A DNA stretch of 64,000 bases from a bacterium. GTDB taxonomy: Bacteria > Verrucomicrobiota > Verrucomicrobiia > Limisphaerales > RI-55. The number at the start of each line of letters is the position of its first letter. Positions within the stretch are counted from its first letter, which is position 1. Under the pieces are notes generated by a model. That model was not told the DNA's origin, ran no database searches, and saw only the letters and a list, made by a program, of their open reading frames with translations. The stretch covers positions 124,001 to 188,000 of the forward strand of contig WGOC01000002.1 of assembly GCA_016124235.1 (NCBI GenBank), read 5' to 3'. This document shows, piece by piece, positions 41,106-53,602 of this stretch. A program made the position numbers and the translations under genes.

Positions 41106-41372
41106 GGGGAAACCCCGGATAAAGCTCTGATTGCAAAATTGCACTTTTCTGTCTCGGGGGGTGCAGGTGCGTTGGCGGGCCGTAAACATTGGTCGCTTTT
41201 GGGTGTCTCAGGGAAACCCCCGATGGACAAAACCCTCAAATTGCCGTTTTCTCAGGGAAAGCCCCGATAGACGACATCGGGAAAAATCGTGTAATGATGA
41301 AAGCAAGCTCACCCAAGGACGTATCGAGGTAACGGAGGAGCGAGACGGTTCAAACCAAAACCAAGAGGTTAA
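41106..41372 (+). promoter_or_regulatory. Cassette 1 upstream control region with RGGGAAASCCCSGAT boxes
   Basis: Three near-identical boxes: GGGGAAACCCCGGAT (41106-41120), AGGGAAACCCCCGAT (41210-41224) and AGGGAAAGCCCCGAT (41254-41268). The last two are 44 bases apart here and in both other cassettes. The region from about 41147 to the ATG at 41373 is nearly the same as 43938-44162 and 46760-46984. An AGAGG element just before the start codon may be the ribosome site. The boxes are likely operators for an unknown regulator. Confidence 0.6.
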
Positions 41373-41747
41373 ATGAAAAAATCATTACTACGCAGAATGG
41401 CCCCGCTCGTGGCGGGGATGTTAATACTGGGCCAATGTGGATTGGCAGTGGCGACGTACCCATATATTTACAACATTACTTGGCCGGAACCGCCCTACGA
41501 CCAATACGCAACAGTTTACGTCTACACCTGAGGAAGCGTTCCTTCAGGGTATGTAGAACCGAGGAGTAGTACGAACAACTACTATTGGTTTTTCGGAGCC
41601 ACTTACTCGGGTTACTGCTGTAATACCACGATCGACACGATGGGTGAAGATGACAGCGTGAGCGTCTATGTCTATGGCACAGACAACGACTATTCGTGGG
41701 CAACGGTTTCTCGGACCTATGGAACCCTGATCGATAACGGACCCTAG
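41373..41747 (+). pseudogene. Cassette 1 small exported protein, interrupted by in-frame TGA
   Basis: The frame starts MKKSLLRRMAPLVAGMLILGQ, the same signal peptide as the two paralogues at 44163 and 46985, and stops after 52 residues at a TGA (41529-41531). The same frame continues for 71 more codons to a TAG at 41745-41747, giving the same length as the paralogues (about 124 codons), and it keeps their features: 'SSTNNYYWF', 'SVSVYVYGTDNDYSW' and the ending 'LIDNGP'. The TGA aligns with a glycine in the 46985 copy (Y-G-G-G-V-P-P-G against T-stop-G-S-V-P-S-G). It is either a recent nonsense mutation or readthrough. The mature protein would be a beta-rich domain of about 100 residues, unknown family. 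Confidence 0.75.
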
Positions 41748-41757
41748 AATTCGACCT

Positions 41758-41787
41758 TCTCCGCCCGTTCTCAGTATCGGGCGGAGA
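41758..41787 (+). promoter_or_regulatory. Intercistronic hairpin, cassette 1
   Basis: A perfect 10-bp stem TCTCCGCCCG (41758-41767) with CGGGCGGAGA (41778-41787), 10-base loop, then GTTTT. It sits 10 bases after the small gene's stop and 11 bases before the ATG of the large gene. It may act as a partial terminator or an mRNA-processing signal. Confidence 0.7.
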
Positions 41788-41798
41788 GTTTTCGATAA

Positions 41799-43739
41799 AT
41801 GAAGCTTGCTGGAACCATCATGCTGCTGATTGCCACTCTGTCGGTAAGCGCCGACGAGTTCTCGCGGTGGACGTGGCGGGTGCCCGACCCACCAGCGGCA
41901 TTGTTCTCGAAGGTCGTCTACGCACAGGACCAGTTTGTCGCCGTGGGAGATTTGGGCTACATCATGACCTCGACCAATGGACTGAAATGGAATTTGGAGG
42001 TGTCGCCCACCACCAATCAATTGCGCAGTGTCATTTATACCGACCAGTTCGTTGCTTCCGGCGACAAGGGAACCATCATTACGTCGCCCGATGCCCGAAC
42101 CTGGCAGTTGACGACGGCGGGAGATTCACAGATCGAAGCGTTGGCCTACGGCAATGACATCTACATGGCGCTGGACAGCCGGGGCAATCTGTTCCGATCG
42201 AATGACGCGCGCCAATGGATTCCCGTTGGCGATCCCATCAACAAGGGCGGCCGCGACATGACCTTCGGCAGTGGGTTGTTCGTCACCGTGGGATTGAATG
42301 GGTTGATCGCCACGTCGACCAATGGTGTGAACTGGGTGCAAAGAACCTCCGGCACCACCGGCATCCTGTTCTCCGTGGCCTATGGCGACGGACTTTTCGT
42401 CGCCGTCGGAGCCGAAGGAACCCAAGGAGTTATCCTGACCTCCAATGACGGGATATATTGGCAACTACAATTCGTGGATAAACCGCTTTCGGATGTCACT
42501 TTCAATGATGGTGAATTCTTGATCATCGGTGGGTCCTTCATGGGGTCGGGCACGTCGTTGACGTCAAGTGATGGCATTTATTTCAACGAGCCCGCCAGTG
42601 ATCCAGGTTTGGATTGGAGCCTCACCGGAGTGACATGCGGCGGCGGAGCCTGTGTCGCCGTCGGCGCCGGAATGTTCATTTCATACGACGGCGGTCAGAC
42701 TTGGAGTGACATCACGGTCGGACCACGTGCGCCGATCTATGGATACGCGCAAAAAAATAGCACTTTGGTCGGCGTTGGTGGCAGCGGTGTCATCGTCACC
42801 ACAACAAACGGTGTGGATTTTACCAACCAGCAGATTCTGAGTGACAAGGCGTGGCTGAGCGTTTGTGCGGGTGAACCGGGATTTGCCGCTGTCGGCGTCG
42901 GAGGGAGAATCGCGTTCTCGCCGGACGGATTTGACTGGACGAATATAACCGGAGCGACACTGGGAGAACTTCCGGCGATTGCCTTTGGCGGCGGCATCTA
43001 CGTCGCGGTGGCTTGGGAAGCCGTCGGCAAGCCTTATGGCTATTTTGTCACCTCGACCAACGGACTGGACTGGGTGGAGCGACGGCCATTTGTGGACACC
43101 TATATCAATCGGACGATCACTTATGGAGCTGGCCAATTCGTGGCGGGCGGCTACGACGGCAAGATCTACACGTCGACCAATGGAATAGATTGGACCGAGC
43201 GACTGACGGGCGTCGGTGGCAACACCATTCCAGTCGCCTATTTGAACAACGGGTTCATCGCTTCGACCGGTGGCGGAATCTTGCATTCCACTGACGGGCT
43301 GACATGGACGTTCACCGGCGGGGAAACGCCCAACGCCCGGGCTATGGCCTATGGCAACGGGCTGTACGTCGCAGTCACCGGCGCGTGGCCCGACGTGCTG
43401 TGGAGTTCACCGGATGGAATCACGTGGAAACGGGAGAAGTTCGGTGCGCGTGACCTCTCGGCCGTGACCTATGCGTTCGACTCGTTTTATATTTCGGGTG
43501 CGGTTATCCAGTCGCAATCCTCGCTGATCCCAACACTGGAACATGTGACTCAAGGGAACGAGCAATTGGACGCGAGTGTGTTTGGCGAAATTGGCCGGGA
43601 TTACGAACTTCAAAGCTCGACGGATTTGAAGACGTGGCAGCACGAGAGTGATTACAACCAGGGCCAACGCATCCAACCGCTCACCCTGCCCACCGGTCCA
43701 AGCCAGAAGTTTTACCGGGTGAAACTGAAACAACCGTGA
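41799..43739 (+). CDS. Cassette 1 large exported beta-propeller protein
   Basis: 646 residues. Signal peptide MKLAGTIMLLIATLSVSADEF, then 'SRWTWRVPDPPAALFSKVVY', a start shared by all three large cassette proteins. The body is built of repeated units of the type G-x-F-V-A-V-G-x-x-G-x-I-x-T-S-x-N-G-x-x-W, as in Ycf48/BNR-type propellers. I count at least seven. The C-terminal segment 'GEIGRDYELQSSTDLKTW' followed by 'LTLPTGPSQKFYRVKLKQP' is almost the same in the three copies and resembles the module in other secreted proteins here. No enzymatic residues were identified. It is probably at the cell surface and may pair with the small protein from the same cassette. Confidence 0.85.
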   Translation: MKLAGTIMLLIATLSVSADEFSRWTWRVPDPPAALFSKVVYAQDQFVAVGDLGYIMTSTNGLKWNLEVSPTTNQLRSVIYTDQFVASGDKGTIITSPDARTWQLTTAGDSQIEALAYGNDIYMALDSRGNLFRSNDARQWIPVGDPINKGGRDMTFGSGLFVTVGLNGLIATSTNGVNWVQRTSGTTGILFSVAYGDGLFVAVGAEGTQGVILTSNDGIYWQLQFVDKPLSDVTFNDGEFLIIGGSFMGSGTSLTSSDGIYFNEPASDPGLDWSLTGVTCGGGACVAVGAGMFISYDGGQTWSDITVGPRAPIYGYAQKNSTLVGVGGSGVIVTTTNGVDFTNQQILSDKAWLSVCAGEPGFAAVGVGGRIAFSPDGFDWTNITGATLGELPAIAFGGGIYVAVAWEAVGKPYGYFVTSTNGLDWVERRPFVDTYINRTITYGAGQFVAGGYDGKIYTSTNGIDWTERLTGVGGNTIPVAYLNNGFIASTGGGILHSTDGLTWTFTGGETPNARAMAYGNGLYVAVTGAWPDVLWSSPDGITWKREKFGARDLSAVTYAFDSFYISGAVIQSQSSLIPTLEHVTQGNEQLDASVFGEIGRDYELQSSTDLKTWQHESDYNQGQRIQPLTLPTGPSQKFYRVKLKQP

Positions 43740-44162
43740 TCCAAATGCGGAATGCAGAATTCCGAATGAGGAGTTGGCAAATCGGAGTTGGATGACAGGA
43801 GACAGGAGATGGGAGTTGGGAAATCGGGCAGAAGCGTTCGCGCTAATTCGCGCAATTCGCGTAAAGCCAGGTCCCCATGTGTCAGCGATCGAAGAATAAC
43901 GATACCCTGCACCGTCATACGATGAGGTGCCGAAAAATTTCTGTCTCGGGGGTGCTGGTGCGTTGGAGGGCCGTAAACATTGGTCGCTTTTGAGTGTCTC
44001 AGGGAAAGCCCGGATGGACAAAACCCTCAAGTTGCCGTTTTTTCAGGGAAAGCCCCGATAGACGGAACGCAAAAAAATCGTGTAATGATGAAAGCAAGCT
44101 CACCCAAGGTCGTATCGGAGTACGGAGGAGCGAGACTGTTCAAACCAAAACCAAGAGGTTAT
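43740..44162. repeat. Shared 3' flank of cassette 1 and control region of cassette 2
   Basis: The first part (43740-43937) is a shared flank also present at 46571-46759 and, as its last copy, at 49386-49535; it includes short AATTCGCG units that differ in number. From 43938 to 44162 the sequence matches the cassette 1 control region, with boxes AGGGAAAGCCCGGAT (44001-44015) and AGGGAAAGCCCCGAT (44045-44059), again 44 bases apart. Long frames read through it (from 43980) are not thought to be genes. Confidence 0.75.
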
Positions 44163-44543
44163 ATGAAAAAATCATTACTACGCAGAATGGCCCCGCTCGT
44201 GGCGGGGGTGTTGTTTGTCGTGCCAGTTGTTACAGCATCGGCGGCTTACACAGGGATTAGTTGGCCGGTGTATTATCCAGATAATCAGTATTGCACTGTC
44301 TCGGTAAATTCGAGCCCGTCTTACCCGTACATTGCGCCGAAGGCTGACAGCGAAAACTACATCTGGTGGTTCGACGGTACTCGAACCTATGCATATTACT
44401 CGGACCATTATACCACTGCCACGGTCTATCCTCTAACCGTTACGAATGTTTGTGTCTACGTGTATGGCGATGACTCGTCCGGTGACGTATCGTACGCCAT
44501 CAGCGATCGTGATACAGGGGTATATATTTGGAACGGGTCCTAG
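44163..44543 (+). CDS. Cassette 2 small exported protein
   Basis: 126 residues from the ATG at 44163. Signal peptide MKKSLLRRMAPLVAGVLFVVP, same as the first 15 residues of the other two copies, then a divergent beta-rich mature domain: 'AYTGISWPVYYPDNQYCTV', 'DSENYIWWFDGTRTYAYYSD' and 'CVYVYGDDSSGDVSYAISD', ending VYIWNGS. The Y-V-Y-G-D-D-x-S-G-D/N-x-S-Y-A block and the terminal N-G-P/S are shared by the family. No cysteine pair and no anchor motif are evident. It is an unknown family. It lies 53 bases before the large gene, with the hairpin between. Confidence 0.75.
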   Translation: MKKSLLRRMAPLVAGVLFVVPVVTASAAYTGISWPVYYPDNQYCTVSVNSSPSYPYIAPKADSENYIWWFDGTRTYAYYSDHYTTATVYPLTVTNVCVYVYGDDSSGDVSYAISDRDTGVYIWNGS

Positions 44544-44559
44544 AAAAATCGATTACGTG

Positions 44560-44587
44560 CTCCCGCCTAATTTTCGTTAGGCGGGAG
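44560..44587 (+). promoter_or_regulatory. Intercistronic hairpin, cassette 2
   Basis: A perfect 11-bp stem CTCCCGCCTAA (44560-44570) with TTAGGCGGGAG (44577-44587), loop TTTTCG. It is in the same position as in cassettes 1 and 3 but of different sequence. It ends 9 bases before the ATG of the large gene, so it may also shield the ribosome site. No T-run follows. Confidence 0.75.
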
Positions 44588-44596
44588 TCGATTGCC

Positions 44597-46570
44597 ATGA
44601 GAATAACAATCACCTGCTTGCTTGGCTTGATGAGTTTGTGCCACGCCGACGAATTCTCTCGGTGGACGTGGCGGGTACCGAGTCCTCCGGCGATTCTCTG
44701 GGAGAAGGTGGCCTTTGCCGACGGCCAGTTCATTGCCGTTGGGGATCTCGGTTCTATCATGACTTCGACCAATGGCCGCGAGTGGTTCCTGGAAAACACG
44801 GTTACCACCAACCGCCTTCTGAATGTCTTCTATGGCGACCGCTACGTGGCTTCGGGCAATCGGGGAACGGTGGTGGCGTCACCGGATGCTCATGAGTGGC
44901 GGCTCGCCAGCTTTCCGAACGATCACACCCTCCTGGCCATGGCCTACGGCAACGACGTCTACGCCGCGTTCGACGTTTACGGAAATTTCTACCACTCGAC
45001 CAATGCGCTGAATTGGGAGACGGTCGACCCGCCCGCCCCAACGACCGGGGCGGACATGGCCTTTGGCGGTGATCAGTTCGTGATGGTCGGTGCTGCGGGG
45101 CTAATCATGACTTCCACGAATGGCTTGGACTGGGTGCAGCGGCAGTCGAATACGACGGGTGATTTTTTGTCGGTCGCTTTTGGAGCGGGCAAATTCGTTG
45201 CGGTGGGTAGCGAGATCGACGGCGACGGAAATGCCAACAGTTTTATTGAGACTTCCTTCAATGGAATCGATTGGTTTTTTCAGTCGTTGAACACTGATGT
45301 GTTGGTTAAAGACCTGACCTACGCCGACGGGCGTTTTGTCATTGTCGGCGGGGATGGTTACTCGGGTGGGTCCATTTCGCTGAATTCGAGTGATGGCATC
45401 TATTACAATTCAGCTGCCGGGGACAATGGTTTTGGCGGGTCAGACGTCAATGGCGTCGCGTGCGGCAATGGCGTATGTGTCGCAGTCGGACAAGGGGTCT
45501 TCAATTCAACCGACGGCGGTTTGACTTGGACGAACATCAACTCAGGACCGTTGGCGACGATTTATGACTTTGCGCAAAAGGATGGCACCGTAGTCGGGGT
45601 TGGTGACGATGGTGTGATCCTGACCACGATCGACGGCCGCGCGTGGGTCAACCAAGTTGTTGGAAGCAGCGCCGGATGGCGATCGCTTAGCGTGGGAAGC
45701 GGTGTGTTTGTGGCCGCTGGGCTGGACGGAGCCCTGGCCAGTTCCCCGGACGGACTCGGATGGACCAGTTATGCCAACGTGACTGCGGGGAACATCTGGT
45801 CGGTCGCGTACGGCGCCGGCCGGTTTGTGGCCGTGGCGTGGGAAGCGACGGGAACGCCGTACGGCTTTTTTGTCACCTCGACCAACGGGACGGACTGGGA
45901 AGTAATCAAACCGCTGGGGAATGTGGGCATAAACGCTTCAATCGCGTTCGGAGCCGGTGCGTTCGTGGTGTTCGCAAATAATGGGTACTATTACTATTCG
46001 CAAGACGGATTGACATGGACCGCGCGCAATACCGGGTACGGCCACTACGTGCTGCCCGTGTTCTATTGCAACAACGAGTTCTTGGGGGTGGAGCCATCTG
46101 TTGGAGTTTTGACTTCAAGCGACGGGCTTTCGTGGGTTCAGCATGAAACCGATATTTCTGGCGTGAGACACGTTTCCCATGGGAACGGAATCTATCTGGC
46201 TGTGGGAGATCTCCCCGGATCCGGGAAGATGTGGAGTTCGGCAGACGGGCTAAACTGGAAGACGGAAAAGATCGGTGTGACCGATCTTCGTTCGTCGATT
46301 TACGCCTACGATTCATTTTATGTTGGCGGCACAGTCCTTCAATCCGAGACTTCGCTGATCCCGTCGCTGGAACAAGTCACTCAGGGGAACGGGCAGTTGA
46401 ACGCGACCGTCTTCGGCCGGATTGGCCGGGATTACGAACTGCAAAGCTCGACGGATTTGAAGACCTGGCAGCACGAGAGCGATTACAACCAGGGCCAGCG
46501 CATCCAGCCACTCGCCCTGCCCACCGGCCCAAGCCAGAAGTTTTATCGCGTGAAACTGAAGGAACCGTGA
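44597..46570 (+). CDS. Cassette 2 large exported beta-propeller protein
   Basis: 657 residues from the ATG at 44597 (the frame is open to 44528 but that extension covers the hairpin). Signal peptide MRITITCLLGLMSLCHADEF, then 'SRWTWRVPSPPAILWEKVAF' as in cassette 1. The G-x-F-V-x-V-G-x-x-G-x-I-x-T-S-T-N-G-x-x-W repeats are the same type, but the middle of the protein has diverged from the other copies. It ends 'GRIGRDYELQSSTDLKTW' and 'PTGPSQKFYRVKLKEP'. Exported; no catalytic signature. The natural ligand and location are unknown. Confidence 0.85.
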   Translation: MRITITCLLGLMSLCHADEFSRWTWRVPSPPAILWEKVAFADGQFIAVGDLGSIMTSTNGREWFLENTVTTNRLLNVFYGDRYVASGNRGTVVASPDAHEWRLASFPNDHTLLAMAYGNDVYAAFDVYGNFYHSTNALNWETVDPPAPTTGADMAFGGDQFVMVGAAGLIMTSTNGLDWVQRQSNTTGDFLSVAFGAGKFVAVGSEIDGDGNANSFIETSFNGIDWFFQSLNTDVLVKDLTYADGRFVIVGGDGYSGGSISLNSSDGIYYNSAAGDNGFGGSDVNGVACGNGVCVAVGQGVFNSTDGGLTWTNINSGPLATIYDFAQKDGTVVGVGDDGVILTTIDGRAWVNQVVGSSAGWRSLSVGSGVFVAAGLDGALASSPDGLGWTSYANVTAGNIWSVAYGAGRFVAVAWEATGTPYGFFVTSTNGTDWEVIKPLGNVGINASIAFGAGAFVVFANNGYYYYSQDGLTWTARNTGYGHYVLPVFYCNNEFLGVEPSVGVLTSSDGLSWVQHETDISGVRHVSHGNGIYLAVGDLPGSGKMWSSADGLNWKTEKIGVTDLRSSIYAYDSFYVGGTVLQSETSLIPSLEQVTQGNGQLNATVFGRIGRDYELQSSTDLKTWQHESDYNQGQRIQPLALPTGPSQKFYRVKLKEP

Positions 46571-46984
46571 TCCGAATGCGGAGTGCAGAATTCTGAATGA
46601 GGAGTTGGCAAATCGGAGATGGATGACAGGAGACAGGAAATGGGAGTTGGGAAATCGGGCAGAAGCATTCGCGCTAATTCGCGTAAAGCCAGGTCCCCAT
46701 GTGTCAGCGATCGTAGAATAACGATACCCTGCACCGTCATACGATGAGGTGCCGAAAAATTTCTGTCTCGGGGGGTGCAGGTGCGTTGGCGGGCCGTAAA
46801 CATTGGTCGCTTTTGGGTGTCTCAGGGAAAGCCCGGATGGACAAAACCCTCAAGTTGCCGTTTTTTCAGGGAAAGCCCCGATAGACGGAACGCAAAGAAA
46901 TCGTGTAATGATGAAAGCAAGCTCACCCAAGGTCGTATCGGAGTATGGAGGAGCGAAACAAACAAACCAAAACCAAGAGGTTAA
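46571..46984. repeat. Shared 3' flank of cassette 2 and control region of cassette 3
   Basis: Flank 46571-46759, then the control region 46760-46984 with boxes at 46824-46838 and 46868-46882, 44 bases apart. Nearly identical to 43740-44162. The frame from 46803 to 46988 is a by-product of the repeat and ends across the true ATG at 46985. Confidence 0.75.
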
Positions 46985-47356
46985 ATGAAAAAATCATTAC
47001 TACGCAGAATCGCCCCGCTCGTGGCGGGGATCTTGTTGGCGGGTCAAACGTTGAGCGTGTTGGCAACATATCCGTATATTGAATCCATCACCAAGGGAAG
47101 CACCTCGGCGAGTGCTAGCGTTGCATATGGTGGCGGAGTACCACCGGGTCACACAGGACCGCGTGATCCAGGCACCTACGGAAATTACTACTGGTGGGTC
47201 GACCAAAACTTTTACACCTCAAACACGCTCAGCATTTCGATTCCATACGGAACAACAAACGTGAATATTTACGTTTATCCCGACGACCTAAGTGGCAACT
47301 ACTCCTACGCGTATGTAAACGATGTTTGGGGAACTTACATCTACAACGGGCCGTAG
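46985..47356 (+). CDS. Cassette 3 small exported protein
   Basis: 123 residues. Signal peptide MKKSLLRRIAPLVAGILLAGQ, then 'LSVLATYPYIESITKGSTSA', a Gly/Pro-rich stretch (YGGGVPPGHTGPRDPG), 'NYYWWVDQNFYTSNTL', 'VNIYVYPDDLSGNYSYAYVN' and the ending IYNGP. It is the intact relative of the interrupted copy at 41373 (shared T-Y-P-Y-I). Exported, unknown family. Its downstream partner gene is itself interrupted, so this small protein may have outlived its partner. Confidence 0.75.
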   Translation: MKKSLLRRIAPLVAGILLAGQTLSVLATYPYIESITKGSTSASASVAYGGGVPPGHTGPRDPGTYGNYYWWVDQNFYTSNTLSISIPYGTTNVNIYVYPDDLSGNYSYAYVNDVWGTYIYNGP

Positions 47357-47378
47357 TAAGCAACCAGGTGGACTCGCA

Positions 47379-47410
47379 AATTCCCGGGAGCGCCAATGCT
47401 CCCGGGAATT
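47379..47410 (+). promoter_or_regulatory. Intercistronic hairpin, cassette 3
   Basis: A perfect 13-bp stem AATTCCCGGGAGC (47379-47391) with GCTCCCGGGAATT (47398-47410), loop GCCAAT. It lies 22 bases after the small gene's stop and 16 bases before the ATG of the large gene. The sequence is unrelated to the hairpins of cassettes 1 and 2. Confidence 0.75.
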
Positions 47411-47426
47411 CAGCCTGCCGTTCCTG

Positions 47427-49385
47427 ATGAATTCACTCCTTACAACCTTGCTGGCGGTGGCATTTGTGTTCGAGTTGCGCGCAGACGAGTTCTCTCAATG
47501 GGAATGGCTGGTGCCTACTCCAGTTGGCGATCACCTGGCTGCGATCACATTTGATGGCACGCGATTTATAGCCGTCGGCGAGATGGGAGTGATACTGACA
47601 TCGACGAACGGCGCTGACTGGCGTCTGACGTACACAGACACCACGAATAAACTGTGGGGCGTTACTGTCGGAGATGCCACGGTACTCGCTTATGGGGACA
47701 ACTCCACCGTGCTGGCCTCCAGCGGTGACGCGACGACTTGGAGATCCGTTGAGACTGGCTCCGACACGGCGATTCACGCATTGACATACGGCAACAACAC
47801 GTACGTCGCCTTGGATTTCTCGTGGCGCGTTTTTATTTCGACGAATGCCGACACTGGATGGCATGAGACGTTGACGCCTCCGGACGGCGCGGCAAATGAC
47901 ATTGAGTTTGGCGACGGAAAGTTCGTCGCGGTTGGTTGGAATGGCCTGATCGCGACGTCAAGCGATGGTGTGGGTTGGACCACTCAAGTTTCTGGTACCG
48001 ATGGTCCAATTTGGGCCGTAACTTATGGCGATGGCAAATGGGTGGCTGTGGGAGGTGAAGAGGATACTGGCTTCATCCTCACTTCGTTCAATGGAACTGA
48101 CTGGTTCCTGCAACTAACGGATACGCCGATGTACTCAGTGACATACGGTCCCTACGGCTTCATCGCCACCGGCGGCGATGTCATGGGATCCGGTGTATCC
48201 ATGAATTCATCGGATGGAATTTATTTCTCCGGTGGCGAGCCGGGCGGATCGGGCCTTTCATCGGTGCCCGCCGGCGTCGCTTGCGGCAATGGTGTTTGTG
48301 TTGCAGTGGGCGGGCCGGGACAAATTTGGACGACAACCGACGGGTCGGCTTGGGTATCCCAGTCCTCTGGCCAGGATCTGACCGTGACGTCACTGGTTTC
48401 CAACGGCGCAAAACTGGTTGGCGTCGGTGGAAAAGGCACCATCGTGACAAGTAGTGACGGACTTCAATTTGAGTCACACATCTATTCGACGAATGAAAAC
48501 TATTTCAAAGTGATCGCCACCGATCACGGGTTCGTAGCAGCGGGCGCAAACGGTATCATTCGGACATCAGCCGATGGGACAGATTGGAATTTGGAGAATA
48601 CCAGCTCGGATGCGACTCTCAAGGATCTTGCCTTCGGCGGCGGCAAGGTTGTAGCGATAGGATGGAACGCATCAGGCAAGCCCTATGGTCAGTTTCTGGT
48701 GCGTGATTCAAATGCCGATTGGCAGGCGGTATGGCCAGCTGCGGACGAATTCATCAATTCCTCGATCGCGTTCGGCAATGGCCATTTTGTGGCGTCAGGA
48801 TATTATGGCGAAGTCTGGATTTCCGATGATGGAACTCAGTGGCAAAAGTCGCAAACGGGAATCGGTGAGACGATCCTGCCCATCCAGTTCATAAACGGAC
48901 AGTTTATCGGACTCACCTCCGGCTCTGTCGGCTTTTCCAACGACGGTGTAAATTGGAACTTTACGACCACGACGCCACCAGCGGTCAAACAGTTGGCATT
49001 CGGCAATGGCCTGTATATCGCAGCGGGTTGGAATCGTGGCGGGATTGAAATCTCCGAGGATTGAATTCATTGGACGAGTCGACCGATGAAGACGCTCAGC
49101 CTCACCTCGGCGGCCTACTTTAGAGATTCATTCTATGTGGCAGGGTTCATCCTGAAGTCGACTTCGTCACTGATTCCGACGATCGAAGATTTTGGGCGAA
49201 AGGGCAACGAAGTGAGCTTTCAAATGTTCGGCCGGATCGGCCGGGACTACGAACTGCAAAGCTCGACGGATCTGAAGACCTGGCAGCACGAGAGCGATTA
49301 CAACCAGGGCCAGCGCATCCAGCCGCTCACCCTGCCCACCGGTCCAAGCCAGAAGTTTTATCGCGTGAAACTGAAGGAACCGTGA
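47427..49385 (+). pseudogene. Cassette 3 large beta-propeller protein, interrupted by in-frame TGA
   Basis: Starts MNSLLTTLLAVAFVFELRADEF, then 'SQWEWLVPTPVGDHLAAI' and the same propeller repeats (RFIAVGEMGVILTSTNG). The frame stops at a TGA at 49062-49064 after 545 residues. The same frame resumes directly (I-H-W-T-S-R-P, then a Met at 49086) and runs to 49385 with the family C-terminus 'GRIGRDYELQSSTDLKTW ... KFYRVKLKEP'. In the intact cassette 1 gene the equivalent codon is GGA (S-P-D-G-I-T-W against S-E-D-stop-I-H-W). Total length with the stop read through is 652, matching its paralogues (646 and 657). Either a nonsense mutation, so the C-terminal module is lost, or readthrough. Confidence 0.75.
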
Positions 49386-49535
49386 TCCGAATGCGGAGTG
49401 CAGAATTCTGAATGAGGAGTTGGCAAATCGGAGATGGATGACAGGAGATAGGAGATGGGAGTTGGGAAATCGGGCAGAAGCGTTGACGCTAATTCGCGCA
49501 ATTCGCGTAAAGCCAGGTCCCCGTGCATCAGCGGT
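49386..49535. repeat. Last copy of the cassette 3' flank
   Basis: Matches 43740-43937 and 46571-46759 up to the AATTCGCG units and the following AAAGCCAGGTCC. Here the repeat ends without a further control region; the next gene (49564) is unrelated. This marks the right end of the cassette array. Confidence 0.75.
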
Positions 49536-49563
49536 CAACCAATAACCTGAAACTTGAACAGAT

Positions 49564-50872
49564 ATGAACCGGAGGAAATTCATCAGGCGAACGGCGCTCG
49601 CCTTGGGCGCGGCACCGTTCGTAAAAATCAACCTCAATGCCGCCACCAACCGACCGGCCGATATCCGAATCGGCATCATCGGTCTCGGTGGAATGGGGCG
49701 TTATCATCTGGACAAATTATCCAAGGCTGCGCATGTCGTCGCGGTCTGCGATGTGCATGAAGTCCGATTGCATCAGGCTGCAGCGCACGCGCGACTCAAC
49801 AATGGTGTTTTCGCCGACTACCGGACGCTGCTGGCGGACAAGCACGTCGATGCGGTGGTCATTGCCACACCGGATCATTGGCACGCCCGGATGACGATCG
49901 ACGCGTGTGAGGCCGGCAAGGATGTACACGTGGAGACACCAGCGGCGACCAATCCGACGGACGGCCGAAAGATGGTGGAGGCCGCCCGCCGCAACAAACG
50001 AATCGTCCAGGTGGGCGCCCACGGTCGCTCCAACGCCGGTGCCCGCAAGGCCTGCGAATACCTGCGCAACGACCAGATCGGTAGGATTGAAAGTGTGAAG
50101 TGCTGGATCACAAAGGATTGTGAGGGCATGAAGGTTTTCCAGCCGCGAGATCCGCGGACCGGGCCCACGGTCTTTGAACTGAAATCAGTGGCAGCCGCCA
50201 AAGAAGCTGCATCGTTGGGCCAGGCGGACCAAAACACCACCGCAAACAGCGGACAACCGCCCGCCGGTCTGAACTGGCGGCAATGGCTCGGTCCGCTGGG
50301 CGAGCGGCCGTATTCCATCGATCTGTTTGAAAACTGGAGGATGCATTTTGATGTCGGAGGCGGGCGGTTATGCGGCATCGGTTCCCAGCTGCTCGGTCTG
50401 GCAAGCTGGATCATGCAAGTGGACGAGACCGGTCCCGTGCGGGTGGAGGCGAAAGGTGGTGCGGCTGGATCTCCGACGGAATGTCCCCATGACTTGGCGG
50501 TAACATGGACTTTCGAAAAGCCGGAATGGAAACTGGTCTGGCAACAACCACACAAACAAATCGGCCAATTGGATCGAGGACTGGTGTTTCACGGATCGAA
50601 CGGGGGGATTAAATGTTTACGGAGGAGCCAACAGTGTGGGAGCAGAACAAAAAGCATGGGACTGGAAGCCGGGCGCTGGTGATCGGAAGGTGCCCTTCAG
50701 TCCGGGGCATCTGGCGAACTGGTTGGAGTGCATTCAGACGCGCAAGCGCCCGATCATGGACATTGAAGCCGGTCATCGGGTGGCGACGCTTTGTTATCTG
50801 GGCAATTTGGCGTGGAAGCAGAAGAAACCCATTATGTGGGACTGGCGGAACGAAACGGCGATTCCGGCCTGA
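49564..50872 (+). pseudogene. Gfo/Idh/MocA-family oxidoreductase with Tat leader, frameshifted
   Basis: Begins M-N-R-R-K-F-I-R-R-T-A-L-A-L-G, a Tat-type leader. The NAD-binding start 'IRIGIIGLGGMGRYHL' and 'VDAVVIATPDHWHARMTIDA' with 'KDVHVETPAATNPTDGRKM' are the family landmarks (the usual E-K-P is E-T-P here). After 'VFHGSNGGIK' near base 50613 the frame is lost; a second frame continues with family-like 'GAEQKAWDWKPGAGDRKVPF' and 'KRPIMDIEAGHRVATLCYLG' to 50872. One extra T near 50614 (AAATGTTTAC against an expected AAAGTTTAC) repairs the reading as I-K-V-Y-G-G-A-N-S-V. It is either a recent frameshift or a sequencing error. Exported sugar-modifying oxidoreductase by family. Confidence 0.8.
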
Positions 50873-50888
50873 CGATGCGAAACCGTAA

Positions 50889-51332
50889 ACGCACGAAGCA
50901 AGGCGCTGGCGGCTGCCTGCCGGCAGAAGGTGGAAAATCCCCCTCTCCGGTCCTGATGGACATCCTCTCCCCCACCGGGGCGAGGAACGGAATGAGGTGG
51001 GGCGAGACCTCCGGGCGAGCCTTGCTTGCGAATTCTCGCAGGCATTGGGACCCGGAACTGGAAAGGCGGCACTCCTGCCGCCTCGGTAGCTGGGCGACAG
51101 GAATGTCGCCCCTCCGATAGGCACGGGAAAGGCGGTCTCGGAGAGAGGCGCCCCACCTTTCGGTTCGTGGGCGCGGACGACGGATCCTGCCAACACCGAT
51201 TCTTTACTTTGCCGGTGCAAAAAAGTCCTTGCTCTTCAGGGGGGGGGGGGGGGAGTAATCTTCAGCATCATCACAGGGCTACGGAGGTCCTGTTGTGAGC
51301 TGTTTGAGGCAACAACCCGAGAGGAATAAGTC
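50889..51332. repeat. Repeat-rich gap with type B and C elements and a poly-G tract
   Basis: No gene is supported. It holds a type C arm (AGGTGGGGCG..., 50995-51025), a type B double hairpin (AGGCGGCA/TGCCGCCT 51064-51083 and GGGCGACA/TGTCGCCC 51092-51111), an inverted GGCGCCCCACC arm near 51147-51158, and a run of 15 G (51239-51253). Small frames here are repeat by-products. Confidence 0.7.
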
Positions 51333-53191: not shown

Positions 53192-53602
53192 GTGAAAGAT
53201 GAACAAACCCAACAACAATTCATTCACCTCCGCGCCACCGGCCGTAGCTTCGCCGCCATCGCCCGCGAGCTGAATGTCTCCAAACCCACCCTGATCAACT
53301 GGAGTCGCAAATTCCGTTTCGACATCCAGAACCTCCGCGCCATTGAAACGGAAGCTCTCGCCGAACGGTTCATTGCCGACCGGATGGTCCGCGCCCGGCA
53401 TCTGGCCGATCAATTGAAAGGAATCGAGTCCGAACTGGCCAAACGCAACCTGGCCGATCTCTCGACTCATCGGTTGTTTCAACTCGCCGAAGGCTTGCGA
53501 CGCCAGCTGCAACAAACCTTCGGCTCGCCGCAATTCACCACCCGCATCAAGGACATCCCGGACGGGGAATACTGCGACGAAGTCCAACACTGGAATCCGT
53601 GA
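53192..53602 (+). CDS. HTH-domain protein, terminase-small-subunit-like, unknown function
   Basis: 136 residues from a GTG start. The N-terminal part 'QFIHLRATGRSFAAIARELN' with 'VSKPTLINWSRKF' is a clear helix-turn-helix of the Hin/transposase or terminase-small-subunit kind. The rest (RHLADQLKGIESELAKRNLA and 'HRLFQLAEGLRRQLQQTFG') is helical, and the end is 'DGEYCDEVQHWNP'. Similar small HTH proteins occur in planctomycete and verrucomicrobial genomes without a known role. It could be a mobile-element remnant. A second small gene of unknown function lies downstream (54003). Confidence 0.6.
   Translation: MKDEQTQQQFIHLRATGRSFAAIARELNVSKPTLINWSRKFRFDIQNLRAIETEALAERFIADRMVRARHLADQLKGIESELAKRNLADLSTHRLFQLAEGLRRQLQQTFGSPQFTTRIKDIPDGEYCDEVQHWNP

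Follow-up and report, generated by a model that had tools for sequence, protein, structure and literature searches.

Bacteria in which UGA has become a sense codon are among the closest described systems for an in-frame TGA at a glycine site. In Absconditabacteria and Gracilibacteria, UGA encodes glycine according to the excerpted text of PMC8629427, and in verrucomicrobial endosymbionts with tiny genomes, of about 160 kb, it encodes tryptophan according to the excerpted text of PMC8204192, which also reports that Ca. Organicella extenuata has a tRNA-Opal-TCA and no PrfB. A further route to UGA as tryptophan, a tRNA-Trp with a 4-bp anticodon stem, is an idea taken from an excerpt of PMC13092985. 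Our literature search returned no report of stop codon readthrough in Verrucomicrobia, and none on pseudogenes in metagenome assemblies. The ordinary counterpart to these systems is the young pseudogene in a tandem array, marked by a single in-frame stop, adjoining intact sisters and a recognisable downstream frame.

The locus described here lies in a window of 64,000 nucleotides (the whole stretch of DNA that was analysed, C22:124001-188000) from a contig-level bacterial assembly of 3.89 Mb in 47 contigs, estimated to be 56% complete. It shares with the Absconditabacteria/Gracilibacteria code, as far as the excerpt describes it, a UGA at a glycine site, but differs in having release factor 2 (RF2), UGA as the commonest stop of the contig, no contig-wide signal of in-frame UGA and no UCA tRNA seen. 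Endosymbionts such as Ca. Organicella extenuata possibly belong to the same phylum, to judge from gene content and a single distant hit; unlike them, as the excerpt portrays them, this organism has a 3.9 Mb genome, retains PrfB and carries its UGA at a glycine site. With the young pseudogene, in contrast, the locus shares all three of the features named above. Compared with a typical nonsense-mutated paralogue its downstream module is hardly decayed, and therefore the lesion is either recent or the base is wrong.

Results

The array consists of three tandem cassettes at about 41.1 to 49.5 kb of the window, each with a gene for a small secreted-looking protein followed by a gene for a large one (Table 1). 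Over most of their length the large proteins are 42% (copies 1 and 3), 41% (copies 2 and 3) and about 50% (copies 1 and 2) identical. The DNA is about 90 to 95% identical between cassettes at the end of the large gene, in its 3' flank, in the upstream region and over the initial 50 bases of the small gene. Divergence in the non-coding cassette flanks (41146-41372, 43740-44162, 46571-46984 and 49386-49536) is only 4.5 to 9%. Uncorrected synonymous divergence in the coding block that the copies share is higher, with 12 differences in about 35 sites between copies 1 and 3; this may reflect either homogenisation with its centre in the intergenic DNA or strong constraint on non-coding sequence. No Rfam RNA family was found within the array at E 0.1. 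Every cassette has a strong hairpin between its small and large gene (41755-41796, 44558-44594 and 47378-47418; z of -4.2, -6.2 and -5.9 in cassettes 1, 2 and 3), different in sequence and alike in form. These hairpins are candidates for attenuation, termination or processing elements by which the small protein would be kept more abundant.

Table 1. Coordinates of the array and its neighbour, numbered along the window
Feature	Position	Strand	Remarks
Cassette-1 small gene	41373..41747	+	broken by TGA at 41529-41531
Cassette-1 large gene	41799..43739	+	intact sister; GGA 43416-43418 at homologous site
Cassette-2 small gene	44163..44543	+	intact
Cassette-2 large gene	44597..46570	+	intact sister; GGG 46247-46249 at homologous site
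Cassette-3 small gene	46985..47356	+	intact, 123 aa
Cassette-3 large gene, standard code	47427..49064	+	545 aa, signal-like N-terminus, beta-propeller (Asp-box) repeats
Frame after TGA, cassette 3	49065..49385	+	open, homologous; propeller remainder and C-terminal module, 106 aa, normal TGA end
Near-identical block, all three cassettes	49224..49536	+	C-terminal module and 3' flank
GFO/IDH/MocA oxidoreductase-like gene	49564..50872	+	frame break near G run 50602-50607

The large gene of cassette 3 is interrupted by a TGA at 49062-49064, which is codon 546 in frame with the ATG at 47427 (gene 47427-49385). The first-pass annotation had described this TGA as lying at a glycine site, GGA in cassette 1, with family sequence on both sides in a single frame and a conserved C-terminal module beyond it, and alignment with the sisters bears out each of these points. 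Cassette 3 reads S-E-D-stop-I-H-W where cassette 1 has S-P-D-G-I-T-W (glycine GGA) and cassette 2 has S-A-D-G-L-N-W (glycine GGG); the downstream frame stays open for 106 codons to a normal TGA end at 49383-49385, its product matches the tails of the two sisters at 63% and 65% identity, and a family profile passes exactly one stop in copy 3. Truncation thus removes 106 residues, the C-terminal module among them. A pattern for Asp-box-like motifs, the repeated S-x-D-G-x-x-W type, was designed to permit a stop at the glycine place; in the three large genes, 30 of its 31 matches have glycine there (12 GGA, 7 GGG, 7 GGC and 4 GGT codons) and the 31st is the TGA at 49062-49064. The assignment of this site to glycine is therefore sound. 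Relative to its intact homologues the gene carries a premature in-frame stop, as does a nonsense allele or young pseudogene.

To place the cut in the protein, we examined a structure model of the cassette-1 large protein, which is predicted to form a long chain of blades (mean pLDDT 75.6, mostly below 50 from about residue 572). Its Foldseek matches are propellers, at E of about 1e-13 to 1e-15, among them 2ymu (E 1.3e-15), 1nr0, which has two seven-bladed propellers (TM-score 0.64 by query), and the GH74 structure 6p2k; by sequence, the best PDB match was no better than E 0.54. The repeated S-x-D-G-x-x-W motifs and the predicted propeller fold are shared with Asp-box/BNR-like beta-propellers. 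Against DUF6242 (PF19755, Pfam) only copy 1 scores over the cut-off and copies 2 and 3 fall under it, while against NF045728 (NCBIfam) all three copies are under. The TGA corresponds to residue 540 of the cassette-1 protein, between the predicted strands 534-537 and 544-546. Because the cut falls inside a propeller blade, a damaged product is favoured over a tidy release form, and the truncated protein looks damaged as far as the model goes. The suggestion of the first-pass annotation that truncation could be a way of releasing the protein is thus speculation, a stop between two predicted strands of a blade offering no clean release point.

Relatives of the array are distant. In the one genome of the same genus we found no orthologous array and only distant propeller matches (best E 1.2e-22), and a scan of genome contigs returned one distant locus, in Opitutia, at 24% identity. 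Propeller matches at 1e-20 occur in 11 of 58 genomes, this one included, with no stop inside the matched part in any of the 11; the query for both counts ended upstream of the TGA. Outside the array, the C-terminal module has only weak matches (E 6.7e-7 to 9.1e-4), in 7 of 20 genomes including this one.

To determine how UGA is read in this organism, we searched the assembly for its release factor. The prfB gene scores over its cut-off and lies on the same contig as the array, about 39 kb further on (C22:212897), and its product carries the SPF and GGQ motifs. The gene (around C22:212897-213943, minus strand, L067) begins with a 23-codon leader that ends in UGA within GGAGG-TTT-CTT-TGA-C, after which the +1 frame continues as RF2. 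This programmed +1 frameshift is the RF2 autoregulation known from other bacteria, and it relies on UGA as a stop. Among the 219 modelled genes of the contig, 126 end in TGA, 55 in TAA and 38 in TAG; 14 of 30 chosen window genes end in TGA, as all three large genes do naturally. Based on RF2, the prfB frameshift and the predominance of TGA at gene ends, UGA appears to terminate translation here.

If UGA were commonly read through, coding-like sequence would be expected to persist beyond it. Across the same 219 modelled genes there is no excess of such extensions after TGA relative to TAA/TAG: those scoring over 10 follow 6 of 126 TGA ends, the cassette-3 tail being one of the six, and 10 of 93 TAA/TAG ends (7 TAA, 3 TAG), in an unsorted count many of whose members may be neighbouring genes sharing the frame. 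A tRNA with a UCA anticodon, a check named beforehand, was absent from the 23 ARAGORN-typed of 24 Rfam tRNA hits in this 56%-complete genome. The 24th hit is interrupted, and an intron-tolerant run weakly suggested tRNA-Glu; this tRNA-like gene (L034 1501-1660, C47:81724 onward; Rfam tRNA 42.5 bits) has an internal insert, is untyped by default ARAGORN, and is directly followed by an apparent second interrupted tRNA-like D arm. The sole tRNA-Trp seen in the incomplete genome has a CCA anticodon and a full 5-bp anticodon stem, and the 4-bp form was not seen. The only over-cut-off tRNA-Sec match is, by ARAGORN, a tRNA-Ser with anticodon TGA (again in an incomplete genome), and the 60 nt that start just before the TGA show no unusual fold (z -0.73; 41 of 200 shuffles were equally stable).

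These observations speak against two candidates. Selenocysteine insertion, which is marked by a stable hairpin after the UGA and by cysteine or selenocysteine in homologues, is not supported: here the fold is ordinary, the only over-cut-off tRNA-Sec match in the incomplete genome is a tRNA-Ser and the homologues carry glycine. A change of genetic code of the UGA=Gly or UGA=Trp type, in which UGA is no longer a stop, was rejected on account of RF2/PrfB, its UGA-dependent frameshift and the extension test. The local readthrough that the first-pass annotation had listed as an option is contradicted by the same set of results together with the ordinary fold and the absence of a UCA tRNA among those seen, and nothing we found in the sequence suggests that the UGA at 49062 is read as an amino acid.

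The tail beyond the TGA retains the character of coding sequence. Its coding bias is 0.187 per codon in frame and -0.324 and -0.142 in the other frames; the 53 codons that precede the shared block score 0.085, and windows of equal size upstream of the TGA average 0.101. The shared module of 53 codons offers roughly 35 synonymous and 124 other sites. Between copies 1 and 3 it shows 12 synonymous differences and 5 in codons where the amino acid changes; between copies 2 and 3 the corresponding counts are 5 and 3. States peculiar to copy 3 in the block comprise three synonymous changes and one replacement, which sits in the opening codon, at the edge of the block. Since these differences are mostly synonymous, the tail was under purifying selection until recently, or still is. 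Its preservation may mean that the TGA is young, that translation still reaches the tail, or that the base call is in error; gene conversion by a healthy copy is a further way in which the shared block could have been renewed.

Over the 54 aligned columns that separate the TGA from the block, identity to the sisters is only 31%; upstream it averages 41%, and 11% of equal windows are as low. Such low identity just after the TGA would suit a longer-standing relaxation and counts against youth. Copies 1 and 2 are unusually alike in this segment (59%), and relative to them the identity contrast of copy 3 is -0.278 against a mean of -0.085, with none of 484 upstream windows as low. We discounted this contrast, since the tract homogenised between copies 1 and 2 is longer there, and relaxed selection right after the TGA was set aside as confounded by homogenisation.

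The first-pass annotation had also called it striking that two lesions in one array are both TGA at glycine sites. Both are TGA and the one at 49062 is at a glycine, but glycine is unproven for the other (41529-41531, in the cassette-1 small gene): at the aligned place cassette 3 has glycine and cassette 2 serine or a gap, which leaves the lost residue uncertain. In a tally that gives every change equal weight, GGA-to-TGA makes up 25 of 231 (10.8%) and 20 of 225 (8.9%) of the single-base nonsense changes open to the two intact sister large genes, about one in ten, and changes that produce TGA make up about 25% in these sisters. Because GGA-to-TGA accounts for about a tenth of one-step nonsense changes and the second glycine is uncertain, the two TGAs are unremarkable.

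Discussion

The locus combines an in-frame TGA, a homologous open frame downstream, intact sisters and a UGA-reading release factor in the genome. We propose, at a probability of roughly 0.7, that it holds an ordinary young nonsense mutation in a redundant copy of the array. A UGA would have arisen at an Asp-box glycine in one of the three tandem genes for a secreted, Asp-box beta-propeller protein, and RF2 would stop translation there (49062); the 545-residue product would lack the last strand of its blade, the remainder of the propeller and the C-terminal module, and would probably be unstable or functionless, a loss tolerated owing to the intact large genes of cassettes 1 and 2. What is inferred in this account is a truly genomic and recent mutation, a defective product and compensation by the sisters. 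Among the options raised by the first-pass annotation, independent decay fits best. Under free decay, it is slightly more than expected that one array should hold two open-frame TGAs, both followed by well-preserved sequence; such a pair would also follow from readthrough or from consensus errors.

The main rival to a young mutation is an artefact of sequencing, polishing or strain mixing, in which the consensus holds an erroneous base, or one from a minority strain, and most cells carry an intact gene. This reading is unlikely but deserves serious weight: the assembly is contig-level and incomplete (56% complete, 47 contigs), three lesions fall within about 9.2 kb (41529, 49062 and about 50605), one of them at a run of six Gs, and the frames downstream of all of them are well kept. 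However, the substitution lies about 160 bases outside the near-identical block (start about 49224), which is atypical of a cross-mapping error, and in a survey of 30 other window ORFs, a subset of all, 25 had Pfam domain matches and no break was noticed, so that errors would need to cluster here. A selected 545-residue form, for example one released without its C-terminal module, is considerably less probable; that module is common to all three copies, is weakly matched in other proteins of the order and could be a putative sorting or anchoring module, but the stop sits off any domain boundary, between two strands predicted for one blade, the searches turned up no relative truncated in the same way, and the tail retains the mark of purifying selection.

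Local readthrough or recoding of UGA as glycine, tryptophan or selenocysteine, restoring the full protein, we consider very improbable. It would account for the open, coding-like frames past the TGA in both interrupted genes and for the selection visible in the downstream module, and UGA=Trp is known from tiny-genome verrucomicrobial endosymbionts (PMC8204192, as excerpted); yet it has to contend with RF2 and the UGA-dependent prfB frameshift, with tRNAs that include no UCA anticodon among those seen, a tRNA-Sec match that is a tRNA-Ser and a tRNA-Trp of normal stem, and with the lack of a post-TGA extension excess or an unusual fold (z -0.73) and large genes that themselves end in TGA. The portion absent from the 56%-complete genome could harbour a suppressor tRNA, and at the far end of the scale, with the slightest chance of all, such a tRNA might read both UGAs in part, giving short and long products, so that the array would set the ratio of protein with and without the C-terminal module.

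The surroundings of the array bear their own irregularities. By Pfam, the window holds PSCyt/DUF1549, GH42 and GFO/IDH/MocA genes, a content that together with the distant Opitutia locus suggests Verrucomicrobiota as the phylum of origin. In the GFO/IDH/MocA-like gene next to the array, the N-terminal domains lie in one frame and the C-terminal part in another (17 bits, below the family cut-off). With its three lesions, this stretch of about 9 kb may be under relaxed selection, or its consensus may be poor locally. Farther on, a run of about 15 Gs between genes (51239-51253) is a possible slippage tract or assembly weak point, and an ORF at 53192-53599, in a poorly coding stretch after the array, resembles a transposase-type helix-turn-helix (HTH_Tnp_1, just under the cut-off).

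Were readthrough to prove true, this would be a rare large-genome bacterium with RF2 that still decodes UGA as sense in chosen genes. As it stands, the locus is a caution that in an uncultured bacterium a stop codon standing where glycine is expected can mimic recoding, and that checks of RF2, the prfB frameshift, the tRNAs and post-stop extensions make recoding unlikely at little cost.
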